Shown piece after piece: positions 373 to 56,356 of a DNA stretch of 64,000 bases. Positions within the stretch are counted from its first letter, which is position 1. The number at the start of each line of letters is the position of its first letter. The notes under the pieces were generated by a model. It had not been told where the DNA came from and searched no databases. It saw nothing but the letters and a program-made list of their open reading frames with translations. Source of the DNA: Streptomyces sp. PCS3-D2 (GTDB lineage: Bacteria > Actinomycetota > Actinomycetes > Streptomycetales > Streptomycetaceae); contig NZ_CP097800.1 in NCBI RefSeq assembly GCF_000612545.2, positions 2,601,001 to 2,665,000 on the forward strand. The letters run 5' to 3'. Both the position numbers and the translations under genes were made by a program.

Positions 373-728
373 GGAGGGCACGGTGCGAGCGTACCCCGGG
401 TACGCACGATGACTTTCCCCACGCCGGTACTCAGGAGTATCCAGGAGGGGCACGGGCCGCGTACTGTTGGAGGAAGTGACGGGTTTCGAGCTACCGTCAT
501 TGGATGGACAGAACAGAATGGTCTAGTCCAGAATTGACTCAGAGTCTCCGCCCTCCCCGCACAGGAGGACGGACCGAGGGAGTCGCGCGCTCTGCCCTGA
601 CCGCGCAGACACCTCTCACCGGCCGCCGGGAACCGCACACCTGACGGCCGTAAGTACTCCGGGCTACGGTGCCGGACGGGTTGAGGGTCCCGTCCTGCAC
701 CGTGGCCCAGAGGAATTCCGGGCGCCCG
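373..728. other. Intergenic region between pdtaS and tetR
   Basis: No convincing gene is seen here. Open frames in this stretch lack ribosome-binding sites and recognisable products. It holds the upstream region of the sensor kinase, a short inverted repeat (TGACGG at 477-482 and CCGTCA at 494-499), and a DasR-operator-like palindrome at 519-530. Confidence 0.6.
519..530. promoter_or_regulatory. DasR operator (dre)-like site upstream of pdtaS
   Basis: The sequence TGGTCTAGTCCA matches 11 of 12 positions of the dre core TGGTCTAGACCA recognised by DasR in streptomycetes. It lies 147 bp upstream of the sensor kinase start. That dasR is encoded in the same window makes a functional site plausible, but control of the kinase is inference. 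Confidence 0.6.
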
Positions 729-13791: not shown

Positions 13792-13836
13792 ACACTACAT
13801 GTTGGGGGTGCCACACAAGGGCGCCCCCACATGTAT
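13792..13836. promoter_or_regulatory. Pair of NrdR-box-like sites upstream of nrdABS
   Basis: ACACTACATGTTGGGG (13792-13807) fits the NrdR box consensus acaCwAtATaTwGtgt at nearly all core positions. A second core, CCACATGTAT (13827-13836), shares the central ACATGT and lies 32 bp away, about three helical turns, as expected for paired NrdR boxes. NrdR is the ATP/dATP-sensing repressor of ribonucleotide reductase genes and is encoded outside this window. Confidence 0.65.
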
Positions 13837-13939
13837 GCTCATGCCTGCTGTCGCCGCAGGGGAATCCGGTGGGAATCCGGAACTGTCCCGCAACGGTATG
13901 AAGTGTCCGACATCCGGACGCCAAGTCCGATGACCTGCC
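13803..13939 (+). promoter_or_regulatory. Cobalamin riboswitch controlling nrdABS
   Basis: The conserved cobalamin aptamer core is present: GGGGAATCCGGTGGGAATCC (13859-13878), then ACTGTCCCGCAACGGT, and the B12 box AAGTCCGATGACCTGCC (13923-13939). The 5' limit is approximate. About 150 nt of expression platform separates it from nrdA, and the nrdA ribosome-binding site GGGAG (14077-14081) can pair with CTCCC (14084-14088). In S. coelicolor a B12 riboswitch represses the class Ia nrdABS genes so that the B12-dependent class II enzyme is used instead. Confidence 0.93.
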
Positions 13940-14091
13940 GTCAGCGCGCCCGGATCGACCGACCCGGGTGCCGACACGTCCGGGCCTCGCGGTTGGGCCG
14001 GTGGACGCCATGCGGTGTGCCCTCCTGCCACGCCCGCATGCGCCCGCGCCCGCCCGCCGACGACCGGGCCGAGCGAGGGAGAGCTCCCGCC

Positions 14092-34376: not shown

Positions 34377-34465
34377 TCTTCAGTAGCGGGGACAGGATTT
34401 GAACCTGCGACCTCTGGGTTATGAGCCCAGCGAGCTACCGAGCTGCTCCACCCCGCGTCGGTGAA
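34376..34465. repeat. 90-bp direct repeat carrying tRNA-fMet, copy 1
   Basis: These 90 bases are identical to 36602-36691. The repeat covers the whole tRNA plus a few flanking bases. The copies lie 2.2 kb apart in the same orientation, on either side of the TPR/Sel1 gene. Confidence 0.9.
34384..34457 (-). tRNA. Initiator tRNA-Met (CAT), copy 1
   Basis: Reverse-strand cloverleaf of 74 nt. It starts CGCGGGGTGGAGCAG, has anticodon CAT in GGGCTCATAACCC, and GGTTCAAATCC as T-loop. The three G-C pairs of the anticodon stem and the C1-U72 mismatch at the acceptor end mark it as initiator. CCA is not encoded. Confidence 0.97.
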
Positions 34466-36604: not shown

Positions 36605-36691
36605 TTCAGTAGCGGGGACAGGATTTGAACCTGCGACCTCTGGGTTATGAGCCCAGCGAGCTACCGAGCTGCTCCACCCCGCGTCGGTGAA
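36602..36691. repeat. 90-bp direct repeat carrying tRNA-fMet, copy 2
   Basis: Identical to 34376-34465; see that entry. Recombination between the two would remove one tRNA and the intervening TPR/Sel1 gene. Confidence 0.9.
36610..36683 (-). tRNA. Initiator tRNA-Met (CAT), copy 2
   Basis: Identical in all 74 positions to the copy at 34384-34457, on the same strand and with the same initiator features. Confidence 0.97.
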
Positions 36692-52508: not shown

Positions 52509-52733
52509 TCACCACCAGGAGGAGTCGAGCCTTCCCTCGATGGCCCTGAGGTTGGCGCGGGCGCACTCGACGCAGAAGTACTCCCTGGTCCCGTTCTCCA
52601 CCGAACAGGTCCAGGTGGGCGGGGCTCCGCCGGGGGACCGTCTGCCGCAGCGCGCGCAGACGACGACGGGCTGGGCCTCGGATCCCGACGGGTCGGGTTG
52701 GGGAGTCGGCGTGTCCACCTCCGGACGATACAT
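52509..52733 (-). CDS. Small four-cysteine zinc-ribbon protein
   Basis: The protein of about 74 residues has CARCGRRS and, after 17 residues, CSVENGTREYFCVECARANL. The four or five cysteines should bind one zinc. The N-terminal third is proline-rich and disordered. The start is uncertain: ATG 52733 is used here. The gene is convergent with the AarF kinase, 12 bp from its stop. Function unknown. Confidence 0.75.
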   Translation of the reverse strand: MYRPEVDTPTPQPDPSGSEAQPVVVCARCGRRSPGGAPPTWTCSVENGTREYFCVECARANLRAIEGRLDSSWW

Positions 52734-52762
52734 CCGCCGGGGGTGGCCGGGCCCGCGCAACG

Positions 52763-52802
52763 CCCCGGGGGGACCGGTCCGTTCGGACCGGTCCCCCCGG
52801 GG
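52763..52802. terminator. Terminator of the wblC unit
   Basis: A perfect 19-bp stem (52763-52781 with 52784-52802) lies between the zinc-ribbon gene and the small gene following wblC, so it should end the wblC transcript. Confidence 0.9.
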
Positions 52803-52818
52803 GAGTGGCTTTCAGCTC

Positions 52819-53148
52819 TCAGTGCATGACGGCCATGGCCAGTGCGCGCCGGGCGCGCATCGAGACGCGCTCGGCCCGCCGCTGCATGCGGCGCGCGGCG
52901 ACCAGGCGGACGGCGTGACGCTCGGCGTCCGCCTCACGCATGCGGTCGTCCATATGGGCGCGAGCCAGGGCTTCTGGGATGAGTTGCATTTCTCGGGTCC
53001 TGTTCTGACGCGAGGTGATCGCGCCGGTGGTGATGAAGTCTGCGTGGGCGGCGCCGTGGGGCTGCTCGCTCGTGGTGTGGGCGGTCATGAGGGCCTGCTT
53101 CAGGGGGTCGTGCGTGAGGGGGCGGTCGATGGTTCCGATGGCGGTCAT
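52819..53148 (-). CDS. Small basic protein cotranslated with wblC
   Basis: The 109-residue frame begins at an ATG overlapping the wblC stop (ATGA). The C-terminal 56 residues, from MQLIPEALARAHMDDRMREA onward, are rich in Arg/Ala and predicted helical. The first half is Thr/His-rich and may be poorly conserved. An internal ATG at 52989 is an alternative start. I do not recognise a function; coupling to wblC suggests antibiotic-inducible expression. Confidence 0.7.
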   Translation of the reverse strand: MTAIGTIDRPLTHDPLKQALMTAHTTSEQPHGAAHADFITTGAITSRQNRTREMQLIPEALARAHMDDRMREADAERHAVRLVAARRMQRRAERVSMRARRALAMAVMH

Positions 53149-53516
53149 GCCGAGACAACCGGGTTCTTGCGCGGACGGCCACGGGGGCGCTTCCGGGCTA
53201 CGACGACACCCTGGACGAAGAGCTCGCCACCCCACACACCCCAGGGCTCGCGGCGCTCGACCGCTCCGGCGAGGCAGGCCTCGACCAGCGGGCAGGTACG
53301 GCAGAGGGACTTGGCGTACTCGACGTCGGCCGGGGACTCGGCGAAGAAGACCTCGGGGTCGAAGGTGCGGCAGGGAACCGGGACGCCGAGGTTCTCGATG
53401 GCGTCGTCGAGCGCGGTGAGCGCGGTGAGCGGGGTCAAGGCGTGGTCCTCCGGGACTGCGGGCGGGGAGATCGTTTGGGTCTGCGGTACGGACGGGGCGT
53501 GCGCTTCGAGTTGCAC
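53145..53516 (-). CDS. wblC: WhiB7-type antibiotic-response regulator WblC
   Basis: The 123-residue protein has the WhiB iron-sulfur cysteines (VPCRTF, then SLCRTCPLVEAC), the WhiB turn EPWGVWGGE and a C-terminal AT-hook RPRGRPRKNP. The AT-hook identifies the WhiB7/WblC subgroup. It partners the principal sigma factor to activate intrinsic resistance genes when ribosome-targeting antibiotics are present. The GTG start follows AGGAAG by eight bases. A 620-nt leader with ORF and terminator precedes it. Confidence 0.97.
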   Translation of the reverse strand: MQLEAHAPSVPQTQTISPPAVPEDHALTPLTALTALDDAIENLGVPVPCRTFDPEVFFAESPADVEYAKSLCRTCPLVEACLAGAVERREPWGVWGGELFVQGVVVARKRPRGRPRKNPVVSA

Positions 53517-53640
53517 GGTGGTTTCTTCCTCGTCTTGTGCGGCTAGGCGTTCCGGCCGGTCGGCCGGGTTCGGCTGGTACCTGGTTCTGCCAGTCCCGAG
53601 GCCCCTTCTCTGCTGTAGCCCCCGGTCGGGGACAAACAGA

Positions 53641-53675
53641 AGGGCCGCGGATCCCGGGTGGGGTTCCGCGGCCCT
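53641..53675 (-). terminator. Intrinsic terminator (attenuator) in the wblC leader
   Basis: An 11-bp GC-rich stem (53641-53651 with 53665-53675) is followed on the reverse strand by TCTGTTTGT. It lies between the leader ORF stop and wblC, so wblC transcription must read through it. A second smaller hairpin (CCCCGACCGGGG) follows at about 53620-53632. Confidence 0.88.
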
Positions 53676-53685
53676 GAAGGCGCCG

Positions 53686-53705
53686 GCCTGATCATGCGAT
53701 CAGGC
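53686..53705 (-). promoter_or_regulatory. Hairpin over the leader-ORF stop codon
   Basis: GCCTGATC (53686-53693) and GATCAGGC (53698-53705) form a perfect 8-bp stem that contains the stop codon of the leader ORF, 11 bp before the terminator. A ribosome at the stop codon would melt it, so it can couple translation to termination. Confidence 0.65.
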
Positions 53706-54023
53706 TGGATCACTCCAGGGTTCGAGCCCGCGGAAGGCCCACATCAGGTGGTACTGCTGCTTCGTCTGCTTCGTCAGGGATCCGGCACCGGCCGCGGCGG
53801 CGAATCCGTAGGCGCCATGCGCCTGGGCTTCTGCTGCCAGTACTGCCACCGGTGCCTGGGTCGGTCGCTCGTTGCGCTCACTGATCGCAAGGGTCGCGAG
53901 CAGGGCGGGGCGGCCGGCGGAAATCGCGGACGCACCGGTGCCCAGAGCGGAGACGGAACCGAGCAGGCAGGAGGCATCAACCGAGCGATCGGTCATTTTG
54001 GTGAAGGTCATGAAGCTGGTCAC
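53700..54023 (-). CDS. Leader ORF upstream of wblC
   Basis: The 107-codon frame starts at a GTG eight bases after AGGAGG, a strong ribosome-binding site, and ends inside a hairpin just before the terminator. The product has no recognised domain; it is Ala/Ser/Thr-rich and ends LTKQTKQQYHLMWAFRGLEP plus five residues. whiB7/wblC genes in actinobacteria are known to be controlled by an upstream ORF and conditional termination. This frame fits that role, although it is longer than I would expect for a simple leader peptide. It could also be a small functional gene. Confidence 0.7.
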   Translation of the reverse strand: MTSFMTFTKMTDRSVDASCLLGSVSALGTGASAISAGRPALLATLAISERNERPTQAPVAVLAAEAQAHGAYGFAAAAGAGSLTKQTKQQYHLMWAFRGLEPWSDPA

Positions 54024-54140
54024 TGGTCTCGCCTCCTCTCGGCGTCTCGGGGACCCGGCCCGAGGGCCTGTCCCATGCGTATTCGGATAAGTACAGCACG
54101 GATCCGGGGCTTCGGAGAAGCCACCGTTTCCGTTGCTAAG

Positions 54141-54179
54141 AACCTATGGGTCTTCGCTGGGCATGTGCAAACTATTTTT
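54141..54179 (-). promoter_or_regulatory. wblC promoter with AT-rich WhiB7-type element
   Basis: On the reverse strand an AT-rich AAAAATAGT lies directly before the -35 TTGCAC (54170-54165). It is followed after 18 bp by a -10 TAGGTT (54146-54141). An AT-rich run against the -35 is the recognised mark of WhiB7-activated promoters, so autoregulation is likely. Confidence 0.8.
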
Positions 54180-54190
54180 CCGACGATTTT

Positions 54191-56356
54191 CTACGCGCCG
54201 TCAGGATCCCCCTCCTCAGGCTCCTGACCTGCACAGATGGCCAGAACATCGGCTCCGTACCGGTCAAGCTTGCGACCGCCCACCCCGGAGATCATCGCCA
54301 GCTCCCCCGCTTCGGAGGGCGCGGCCTCCGCGATCGCCATCAGTGTCTTGTCCGTGAAGACGCAGTAGGCGGGCAGGCCCTGCCGCTTCGACTGGACGGC
54401 GCGCCAGTCCCGCAGCCGCTCGTAGAGGCCTTCGTCCATGTCGGACGGGCAGTCCTCGCAGCGCATCAGCTTCAGCTCGCCGGCCTCGGTCAGCGTCCTG
54501 CCGCAGACCCGGCACAGCACCGGTGCGCGGCGGCCGCGCCCGGGGGCCGCCCGCTCGCCCGCGGAGCCCGTCCGGCTGCCCGGGGCCGCCGAGCCCGGCC
54601 GCAGACCGCTCAGGAAACGGCTGGGGCGCCGGGAGGCCCGCCCCCCGGGGGTGCGCGAGAGCGCCCAGGACAGGCTCAAGTGCAGCCGGGCCCGGGTGAC
54701 GCCGACGTAGAGCAGCCGCCGCTCCTCCTCGACCTGGTCGTCGGTCCTGGCGTAGGTGATCGGGATCATGCCGTCGGTGAGGCCGACGAGGAACACCGCG
54801 TCCCACTCCAGGCCCTTCGCCGCGTGCAGCGAGGCCAGGGTGACGCCCTGGACGGTCGGGGCGTGCTGGGCAGCCCGGCGGTCGTCGAGTTCGACCGTGA
54901 GGTCCGCCAGGGTGGCGCCGGGCCGACTGCGCGCGAAGTCCTCGGCGAGCCGCAGCAGCGCCGCCACCGACTCCCACTGGTCGCGGACTGCGCCGGAACC
55001 GGCGGGCGGCTGGGTGGTCCAGCCGATGGAGCTGAGCACCGCACGGACCTGGGAGCCCAGGTCGACGACGTCGTCGAGCAGCGGGTCGTTCCCGCCCGAA
55101 CGGGCCGCTCCGCGCAGCGCGAGGATGGCCTTCTGGACTTCCTGGCGCTCGAAGAACCGCTCGGCACCGCGCAGCTGGTAGGGCACCCCGGCGTCGGCGA
55201 GGGCCTGCTCGTAGACCTCGGACTGGGCGTTGATGCGGAAGAGCACGGCGATCTCGCCCGCCGGCACGCCCGCGGCGATCAGGTCGCGGATCCGGCGGGC
55301 GACGCCCTCGGCCTCGGCGGGCTCGTCCGCGTATTCGGCGTAGACCGGGTCGGGGCCGCTCTCGCGCTGGGAGACGAGTTCGAGGCGGTGCTCGGCCGCC
55401 CGCCCCCTGGCCTGCTTCAGCAGCCCGTTGGCGAGGTGCACCACCTGCGGGGTGGAGCGGTAGTCGCGGACCAGCTTGACCACGGTGGCCTGCGGGTAGC
55501 GCGTGCGGAAGTTCAGCAGGTGGTCGGGGGTGGCGCCGGTGAAGGAGTAGATGGTCTGGCTGGCGTCCCCGACGACGCAGAGGCTGTCGCGCTCGCCGAG
55601 CCACAGGTCGAGCAGCCGCTGCTGGAGCGGGCTGACATCCTGGTACTCGTCGACGACGAAGTGCTGGTACTGGGCACGGATCTGCTCGGCGATGTCGTGG
55701 CGGTCCTGGAGGATGCCGACGGTCAGGAGCAGCACGTCCTCGAAGTCGATCATTCCGCGGTCGCGCTTGAGCTGTTCGTACGTCCCGTAGATCTGGGCGA
55801 TCTCGGCCATGTCCCTGGGGGCCTCCCGGCCCGCCTTGAGGGCGGCCATCGGATAGTCGGCCGGCACCGTCTGGGTGACCTTGGCCCACTCGATCTCGCC
55901 GGTCACGTCGCGCAGCTCGCCCCGGTCGAGGCGGATGCGGCAGCGGGCGCCGGCCTCGGCGACGAGCTGGATCTTGCGCTCCAGCAGCCGGGGCACGTCC
56001 CCTCCGACGGCTTTCGGCCAGAAGTACTGGAGCTGGCGCAGGGCGGCCGAGTGGAAGGTCCGGGCCTGGACCCCGCCCGCGCCGAGCGCGCGCAGGCGGC
56101 CGCGCATCTCGCCGGCGGCCCGGTTGGTGAAGGTGACGGCAAGCACACTGGCCGGCATGAGCTGCCCGGACCGGACGCCGTAGGCGATGCGGTGGGTGAT
56201 CGCCCGGGTCTTGCCCGTACCGGCGCCGGCCAGCACACACACCGGTCCGCGCAGGGTCGTCGCGACCTCGCGCTGCTCCGGGTCGAGGCCCAGGAGCACC
56301 GCGTCGGCCGAGTCCGCGGCGGCGGGGAAGGACGAGGAGTGCGTTGCTGCTGTCAC
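54191..56356 (-). CDS. uvrD2: ATP-dependent DNA helicase UvrD2
   Basis: The 721-residue superfamily 1 helicase has VLAGAGTGKTRAITHRIA (Walker A), FTNRAAGEM, FVVDEYQDVSPLQ (Walker B), VVGDASQTIYSFTGA and LLYVGVTRARLHL (motif VI). The C-terminal part has a tetracysteine element (CRVCG, CEDC) and an HRDC domain, the layout of mycobacterial UvrD2. It acts in DNA repair. It is divergent from mycoredoxin. The start is a GTG with a weak ribosome-binding site. Confidence 0.95.
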   Translation of the reverse strand: MTAATHSSSFPAAADSADAVLLGLDPEQREVATTLRGPVCVLAGAGTGKTRAITHRIAYGVRSGQLMPASVLAVTFTNRAAGEMRGRLRALGAGGVQARTFHSAALRQLQYFWPKAVGGDVPRLLERKIQLVAEAGARCRIRLDRGELRDVTGEIEWAKVTQTVPADYPMAALKAGREAPRDMAEIAQIYGTYEQLKRDRGMIDFEDVLLLTVGILQDRHDIAEQIRAQYQHFVVDEYQDVSPLQQRLLDLWLGERDSLCVVGDASQTIYSFTGATPDHLLNFRTRYPQATVVKLVRDYRSTPQVVHLANGLLKQARGRAAEHRLELVSQRESGPDPVYAEYADEPAEAEGVARRIRDLIAAGVPAGEIAVLFRINAQSEVYEQALADAGVPYQLRGAERFFERQEVQKAILALRGAARSGGNDPLLDDVVDLGSQVRAVLSSIGWTTQPPAGSGAVRDQWESVAALLRLAEDFARSRPGATLADLTVELDDRRAAQHAPTVQGVTLASLHAAKGLEWDAVFLVGLTDGMIPITYARTDDQVEEERRLLYVGVTRARLHLSLSWALSRTPGGRASRRPSRFLSGLRPGSAAPGSRTGSAGERAAPGRGRRAPVLCRVCGRTLTEAGELKLMRCEDCPSDMDEGLYERLRDWRAVQSKRQGLPAYCVFTDKTLMAIAEAAPSEAGELAMISGVGGRKLDRYGADVLAICAGQEPEEGDPDGA

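Follow-up and report, generated by a model that had tools for sequence, protein, structure and literature searches.

The wblC leader of Streptomyces sp. PCS3-D2 as a probable ribosome-controlled transcription attenuator with an antiterminator drawn from leader-ORF codons

How can translation of a leader ORF decide whether transcription continues into wblC, and which part of that ORF makes the decision? The locus that raises this question lies on the minus strand (54200-53145) of a 64,000-nucleotide stretch of the Streptomyces sp. PCS3-D2 genome (contig NZ_CP097800.1, positions 2,601,001 to 2,665,000; hereafter the window), where a promoter, a Shine-Dalgarno sequence, a leader ORF (uORF), a stop-codon hairpin, a terminator and wblC follow one another in that order. 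Attenuation of whiB7/wblC by a uORF with an antiterminator is established (PMC11550727, PMC9618640, PMC13393426, PMC12421871, PMC7157823, PMC4128351, PMC13236596). The attenuator responds to translation stress, and upstream-ORF control of these genes is published, just as the original prediction for this leader had said (both PMC11550727, PMC9618640, PMC13393426). The attenuation of wblC by a uORF is an already known system, of which the present locus is mainly a well-resolved member. Antiterminators of wblC/whiB7 were reportedly found by Lee, Lee and Roe in 2022 to be conserved in sub-clades and were tested in Streptomyces and Mycobacterium. We put the probability that this locus is a ribosome-controlled transcription attenuator of wblC at about 0.93. 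Its parts, their conservation and covariation, the mutual exclusivity of its folds and, by a simple scan of folds, a codon boundary were computed here.

The original prediction had placed a WhiB7-type promoter, a 107-codon GTG ORF with an AGGAGG, a hairpin across the ORF stop codon and a strong U-tailed terminator in front of wblC, and every one of these elements is present with coordinates exact to one base on the minus strand (Table 1). A pattern search recovered the same promoter layout, an AT-rich box followed by -35 and -10 hexamers with a spacer of 16-19, in 143 of 145 Streptomyces leaders. The AAAAAT box agrees at five of six letters with GAAAWY, the motif that sits 3 nt 5' of the -35 in WblC-type promoters (PMC7157823). 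A generic consensus scan listed no promoters and gave no terminator on the minus strand, a blindness that probably stems from the A.A mismatch and the atypical hexamers of this leader. The wblC product is a Whib protein by Pfam and matched no NCBIfam model; its nearest solved structures are those of WhiB7 (E 1e-28, the next paralogue following at 2e-8). The stop codon of a helicase gene on the same strand directly precedes the promoter, an arrangement that would suit a reading in which the hairpin is merely the terminator of that gene and the ORF is unrelated; with a conserved promoter pattern lying in between in all but two of the 145 leaders, and with a terminator arm that pairs with the leader ORF, such a reading is hardly credible. 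Antisense to wblC runs a 383-codon open frame (window 52540-53691, plus strand) that is without a match in Pfam and appears to be a by-product of high GC content.

Table 1. Features of the wblC locus in the window
Feature	Position	Strand	Details and basis
UvrD-type helicase gene	54191-56356	minus	UvrD N/C domains and HRDC; upstream of the promoter
Promoter of the WblC-responsive type	54179-54141	minus	layout of AAAAAT box, -35 and -10
Promoter box AAAAAT	54179-54174	minus	3 nt before the -35
-35 TTGCAC	54170-54165	minus	18-nt spacer to the -10
-10 TAGGTT	54146-54141	minus	
Shine-Dalgarno AGGAGG of the leader ORF	54037-54032	minus	part of a block that is conserved across 141 aligned Streptomyces leaders
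Leader ORF (uORF)	54023-53700	minus	GTG start, 107 codons, TGA 53702-53700; orthologous ORFs in relatives
Approximate listening zone (predicted)	54023-53739	minus	codons 1 to ~94-95; scan of the last 45 codons, earlier codons extrapolated
Antiterminator 5' strand, helix P1	53735-53728	minus	UUCCGCGG; codons Phe-Arg-Gly; fold and covariation
Antiterminator 5' strand, helix P2	53720-53713	minus	CCCUGGAG; codons Pro-Trp-Ser; fold and covariation
Stop-codon hairpin, tip P3	53705-53686	minus	GCCUGAUC-gcau-GAUCAGGC (DNA GCCTGATC-gcat-GATCAGGC)
Antiterminator 3' strand	53679-53664	minus	CUUCAGGGCCGCGGAA; overlaps the terminator 5' arm; fold and covariation
Intrinsic terminator hairpin with A.A mismatch	53675-53641	minus	fold and covariation
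U-rich terminator tail	53641-53633	minus	TTCTGTTTG; sequence
wblC (whiB7 orthologue)	53516-53145	minus	GTG start, 123 aa; Whib match and structural relatives

Of 150 Streptomyces genomes, 148 contain a wblC-like gene (E <= 1e-49), and 103 of the 118 genomes of a class sample contain a WhiB7 relative (E <= 1e-15). We examined 238 loci; 225 passed a terminator rule, and removal of 17 duplicates left 208 distinct leaders. Of the 13 that failed the rule (L033, L168, L174, L175, L177, L178, L179, L181, L194, L199, L215, L218 and L233), six (L168, L174, L175, L199, L218 and L233) plainly carry the same terminator and fail a filter only, and most of the others probably suffered from a misassigned gene anchor or from a sequence that was too short. 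A mechanical rule that demands a good Shine-Dalgarno sequence found a leader ORF ending before the terminator, as in the window, in 206 of the 208 distinct leaders (145 from Streptomyces and 61 from outside the family), the exceptions being L172 and L208. It replaced a first regex search, which had reported such ORFs at 143 of the 148 Streptomyces loci, some of them wrong. Part of the set from outside the family (L217-L246) came from a search for the terminator pattern and was thus picked for having a terminator. From other genera of the Streptomycetaceae, 40 of 51 genomes were taken; the hairpin was present at all 40 loci and an ORF with the expected end at 39, L286 being left out because its called ORF was wrong. 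These 39 bring the total to 245 leaders. Median ORF length is 108 codons in Streptomyces, 120 in the other Streptomycetaceae and 78 outside the family. The Shine-Dalgarno sequence of the window ORF sits within a strongly conserved GACGCC-GAGAGGA-GGCGA block (window 54060-54010, minus strand) that could form a small hairpin, and the local fold of this block is no better than that of shuffles (z 0.05).

The terminator consists of 11 pairs, an A.A mismatch, three further pairs and a loop of five, followed by TCTGTTTG. Covariation across 53 sequences of the class supports it as an intrinsic terminator in front of the gene: 96.8% of cells are paired, six pairs show two-sided changes and none of 500 shuffles equalled it. 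Seven of its 14 pairs are invariant in the same set, and within the Streptomycetaceae alone a wider automatic alignment held no two-sided changes in it. The letters of the 5' arm are presumably fixed by the double demand of pairing with the terminator 3' arm and with a coding strand. The exact arms CCGCGGAACCC and GGGATCCGCGG, separated by 1-9 bases, occur in 72 of 296 class genomes, whereas a control with reversed arms was absent among the matches listed. Of 30 exact-arm loci that we inspected, 28 lie before whiB7; the remaining two are chance matches and were rejected. The A.A mismatch in the stem (window 53675-53641, minus strand) is kept in many relatives, with letters nearly unchanged across the class. 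Compared with dinucleotide shuffles, the whole module folds with a z of -3.1, and the module cut at the terminator 5' arm with a z of -4.1.

What the original prediction, which described the attenuator as complete, had overlooked is its central antiterminator. When the RNA ends at the terminator 5' arm, it folds into an antiterminator (-51.2 kcal/mol) in which UUCCGCGG and CCCUGGAG, both within the leader ORF, pair with CUUCAGGGCCGCGGAA; when the RNA extends through the terminator 3' arm, it takes the terminator fold. The antiterminator 3' strand comprises most of the terminator 5' arm plus the four preceding bases, and the two folds are therefore mutually exclusive. The listed parts of the attenuator thus stand, and its completeness does not, given this alternative fold and its covariation. 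The predicted hairpin across the stop codon is real and covaries, with two-sided changes at all eight of its pairs in the 53-sequence alignment, but it is nested as the tip (P3) of the antiterminator, whose outer helices P1 and P2 are supported as well. Its earlier role as a separate decision element accordingly fell away.

For the covariation analysis we hand-picked 27 (Streptomycetaceae) and 53 (class) of the 245 leaders for spread. In the 27 Streptomycetaceae, 92.8% of antiterminator cells are paired as against 33-47% with slid partners, with six two-sided pairs, and in the 53 class sequences 77.2% are paired as against 34-49%, with 17 two-sided pairs in 85 cells; the structure was derived from one of the aligned sequences and therefore holds an advantage over its slid versions. 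In both sets, none of 500 shuffles equalled the structure in percentage of paired cells, in two-sided changes or in covariation score; for further pair types, 43 of 500 did so in the 27-sequence set. A wider automatic alignment of 73 Streptomycetaceae gave 93.9% paired and five two-sided pairs in 41 cells, with one slid control showing more such pairs in fewer cells (six in 16). Across 81 rows of the class, 64.6% of antiterminator cells were paired, with 20 two-sided pairs in 140 cells as against 15-17 pairs in 57-81 cells for slid controls. In a consensus fold of the Streptomyces leader, the stable helices fell mostly within the module; covariation terms were near zero or unfavourable in all windows, those of the module too, owing to the close similarity of the sequences.

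Pairing between the ORF tail and the terminator arm also depends on the codons that are used. Synonymous resampling of the tail reduced this pairing from 0.71 to 0.54 outside the family (60 of the 61 leaders) and from 0.83 to 0.69 in Streptomyces (60 of the 145), where it had no effect on folding energy (p 0.52). When tails and terminators were swapped between leaders, native combinations outside the family beat swapped ones in 41 of 61 leaders for each of two segments. In Streptomyces, native combinations were better in 116 of 145 leaders for the base segment; for the 14-nt arm, whose sequences are nearly identical, the figure was only 38 of 145.

Where must a ribosome be for the antiterminator to form? 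We folded only the RNA ahead of a modelled ribosome, with the P site at each of the last 45 codons, in subsets taken at even steps (37 of the 145 Streptomyces leaders, 20 of the 39 from other Streptomycetaceae and 31 of the 61 from outside the family). The antiterminator was lost when the P site came to about 13 codons from the stop, with medians of 13 in Streptomyces, 13 in the family and 12 outside it. In the window leader, antiterminator probability falls to 0.44-0.57 where 36-39 codons remain to the stop, and then recovers. A ribosome upstream of the last ~13 codons, or no ribosome at all, is thus predicted to leave the antiterminator free, the prediction being an extrapolation for positions beyond the last 45 codons. 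Because the point of loss is at ~12-13 codons in all groups, the off zone is nearly constant while ORF length varies. The original prediction had a ribosome that reaches or misses the stop codon set termination. Attenuation controlled by leader translation survives this analysis; the stop codon as sole decider gives way to the last ~13 codons. That the stop-codon hairpin acts independently and the stop codon alone decides is therefore very improbable: the hairpin is genuine and covarying, but it belongs to a larger supported structure, and the modelled loss of antitermination begins well before the stop. A ribosome on the stop codon leaves the UUCCGCGG strand behind it, and re-pairing might occur there.

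We propose that the switch would work as follows. RNA polymerase would start at the WblC-type promoter and make a leader of about 620 nt, counted from the presumed start. When translation is fast, the ribosome would be on or past the antiterminator strands, within the last ~13 codons, as the terminator 5' arm emerges; the terminator would then fold and transcription would end near 53634. Slower elongation or initiation, caused by an antibiotic or a shortage of charged tRNA, would leave the ribosome further upstream or absent; leader-ORF codons would then pair with the terminator 5' arm, and the terminator would not form in time. With the terminator blocked, wblC would be transcribed and WblC would boost its own promoter. 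The direction of the response and the autoregulation are taken from the literature, and the switch presumably operates in this way in the present species too. At equilibrium, the complete module adopts the terminator and not the antiterminator, and antitermination (the ON state) therefore relies on the antiterminator forming first, that is, on folding order and speed. To this scheme we would add that codon choice in the ORF body may be selected so that RNA bared by a stalled ribosome avoids mispairing with the switch.

The leader peptide itself might instead be the active element, as an arrest peptide that senses drugs or as a product that functions in trans. Its amino acids are strongly conserved over the 145 Streptomyces leaders, most visibly in the tail W-A-F-R-G-x-E-P-W-S-D-P, but the residues of that tail are encoded by the antiterminator pairing strands and their codons are largely fixed to the pairing ones. 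Outside the family, the peptides have little in common apart from short motifs in the tail, W-S-P-P for example, and the window peptide matched no family in Pfam or NCBIfam. We consider a peptide-based mechanism improbable. The window ORF also lacks, at the decision point, a run of codons for one amino acid of the kind used in trp-type attenuators; alanine is moderately raised in the 145 Streptomyces peptides (17.3%, against 12.4% in a uvrD2 fragment).

A codon-conservation test of the leader ORF across Streptomyces, which the original prediction had put forward as a check, was run on 141 aligned leaders and revealed frozen codons, rare A/T-ending ones included. Of 66 columns with a conserved residue, 15 are fixed at >=80% on A/T-ending codons, the corresponding counts being 1 of 75 for the uvrD2 (helicase) fragment and 4 of 61 for wblC; 11 of the 15 belong to the body and four to the final ORF codons. 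The share of columns in which one codon reaches >=90% is equally high in the ORF (46 of 66) and in wblC (42 of 61), and it is therefore the A/T-ending columns that stand out. The uvrD2 codon baseline was framed by tblastn and has a GC3 of 0.90; an earlier version (GC3 0.81) was dropped, its frames being taken as wrong given the lower GC3.

At the sequence level, we permuted body codons among sites for the same residue in 48 Streptomyces leaders. Predicted pairing of the body with the switch rose from 0.083 to 0.157 and antiterminator probability fell from 0.72 to 0.54; two further runs gave comparable results. Resampling the body to helicase codon usage gave a pairing of 0.178, and a body taken from another species gave 0.103, slightly above native (p 2.5e-3). 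When a helicase fragment served as the body, native and permuted versions did not differ (0.194 and 0.181, p 0.64). Permutation raised pairing from 0.095 to 0.131 in the 39 leaders of other Streptomycetaceae and, as a weak effect, from 0.140 to 0.164 outside the family (59 of the 61 leaders, p 5e-3), with p-values that overstate the evidence throughout, since the leaders, being related, do not count as independent observations. In the Streptomyces ORF body, consensus folding revealed no covariation, and the local stability of the body is mixed: two of ten 90-nt positions have a mean z of about -0.9 and both end windows about +0.7 to +1.2. In the folding model, the permutation effect may reflect RNA insulation of the switch from the ORF body.

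The main rival to insulation keeps the same attenuator but takes the frozen rare codons (AAA, GAT, AAT, CGA-CCG, GCA, GTA, TAT and TTT) to be programmed slow sites that set the pace of the ribosome relative to RNA polymerase. Such timing would account for the excess of A/T-ending fixed columns, for the use of CGA for 143 of 144 arginines at one column and for the presence of CGA-CCG in at least 22 of 36 first Arg-Pro motifs among the 39 leaders of other Streptomycetaceae. The frozen blocks are, on the contrary, contiguous nucleotide runs rather than single codons, the window ORF has AAC, TAC and TTC in place of AAT, TAT and TTT, and same-residue permutation raises pairing with the switch while it keeps overall codon rarity. 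We therefore regard programmed slow codons as rather unlikely, if still worth weighing. Insulation leads to a tentative picture, to which we give somewhat less than even odds, of a two-part sensor set by codon choice: a nearly constant off zone of ~10-14 codons, which holds the switch strands, and a listening zone of variable length whose codons, conserved rare ones among them, would be selected to keep off the switch, so that stalls almost anywhere report equally.

Is the module particular to wblC? A covariance model built from the 53 class sequences found one sense copy in the PCS3-D2 genome (E 1e-22), together with a weak antisense match of the palindromic terminator, and no module before other genes of this genome beyond the wblC locus. 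Among 108 class genomes, 83 had a match at E <= 0.01 and 25 had none at that threshold. Of 72 class matches at E <= 1e-4, 71 are at or within 700 nt upstream of whiB7, one is antisense at a whiB7 locus and none lies before another gene; some of the matched leaders are also in the model, so that this count shows placement rather than independent discovery. Rfam 15 gave no match at its gathering score for the wblC leader. The element thus goes without an Rfam match in the window, and yet the covariance model locates copies of it at whiB7 in many genera. Elsewhere in the window, Rfam matched the Streptomyces small RNA scr5239 (545-701, plus strand; RF02605, 117 bits) and a cobalamin riboswitch (13835-13956, plus strand; RF00174, 40 bits), and two tRNA-Met (cat) genes with equal Rfam scores lie ~2.2 kb apart (34383-34457 and 36609-36683, minus strand).

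In gene, promoter logic, uORF, intrinsic terminator and antiterminator, the locus resembles the wblC/whiB7 uORF attenuator of Lee et al. (2022), and we saw no difference in core mechanism. In the trp attenuator, the position of the ribosome sets the choice between terminator and antiterminator. Ribosome position likewise makes this selection in ilvB-type attenuators (PMC11550727), but the wblC leader differs from the trp/ilv type in having no regulatory codon run, with alanine raised only moderately. The uORF attenuators of are5sc and tiaA (Streptomyces ARE-ABCF) sense antibiotics, with attenuation proposed to be drug-controlled, and also combine a uORF, a terminator and an antiterminator in the 5' leader; their uORFs are 3 and 9 residues long, with stalling on the start codon in response to particular drugs (all PMC12421871), whereas the wblC leader has ~95 codons in which a stall is predicted to count.

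The present analysis apparently adds, for this locus, the antiterminator and the codon boundary, covariation across the class, the position of the module at whiB7 and, in the ORF body, frozen codons and a codon choice that may insulate the switch. Freezing of ORF-body codons and the possible insulation by codon choice appear to be new; titles and abstract openings of open-licence papers made no mention of codon freezing or insulation for the whiB7 uORF. Stalling of ribosomes by antibiotics within this uORF is described as untested in a 2025 eLife paper (PMC12121999), and the codon boundary tells where to look for it. Insulation predicts that the switch would be weakened if the ORF body were recoded synonymously. 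The gene under this control, whiB7/wblC, governs natural antibiotic tolerance, and the two-part sensor, if true, would explain both the length of the leader ORF and the response to many unrelated inhibitors.
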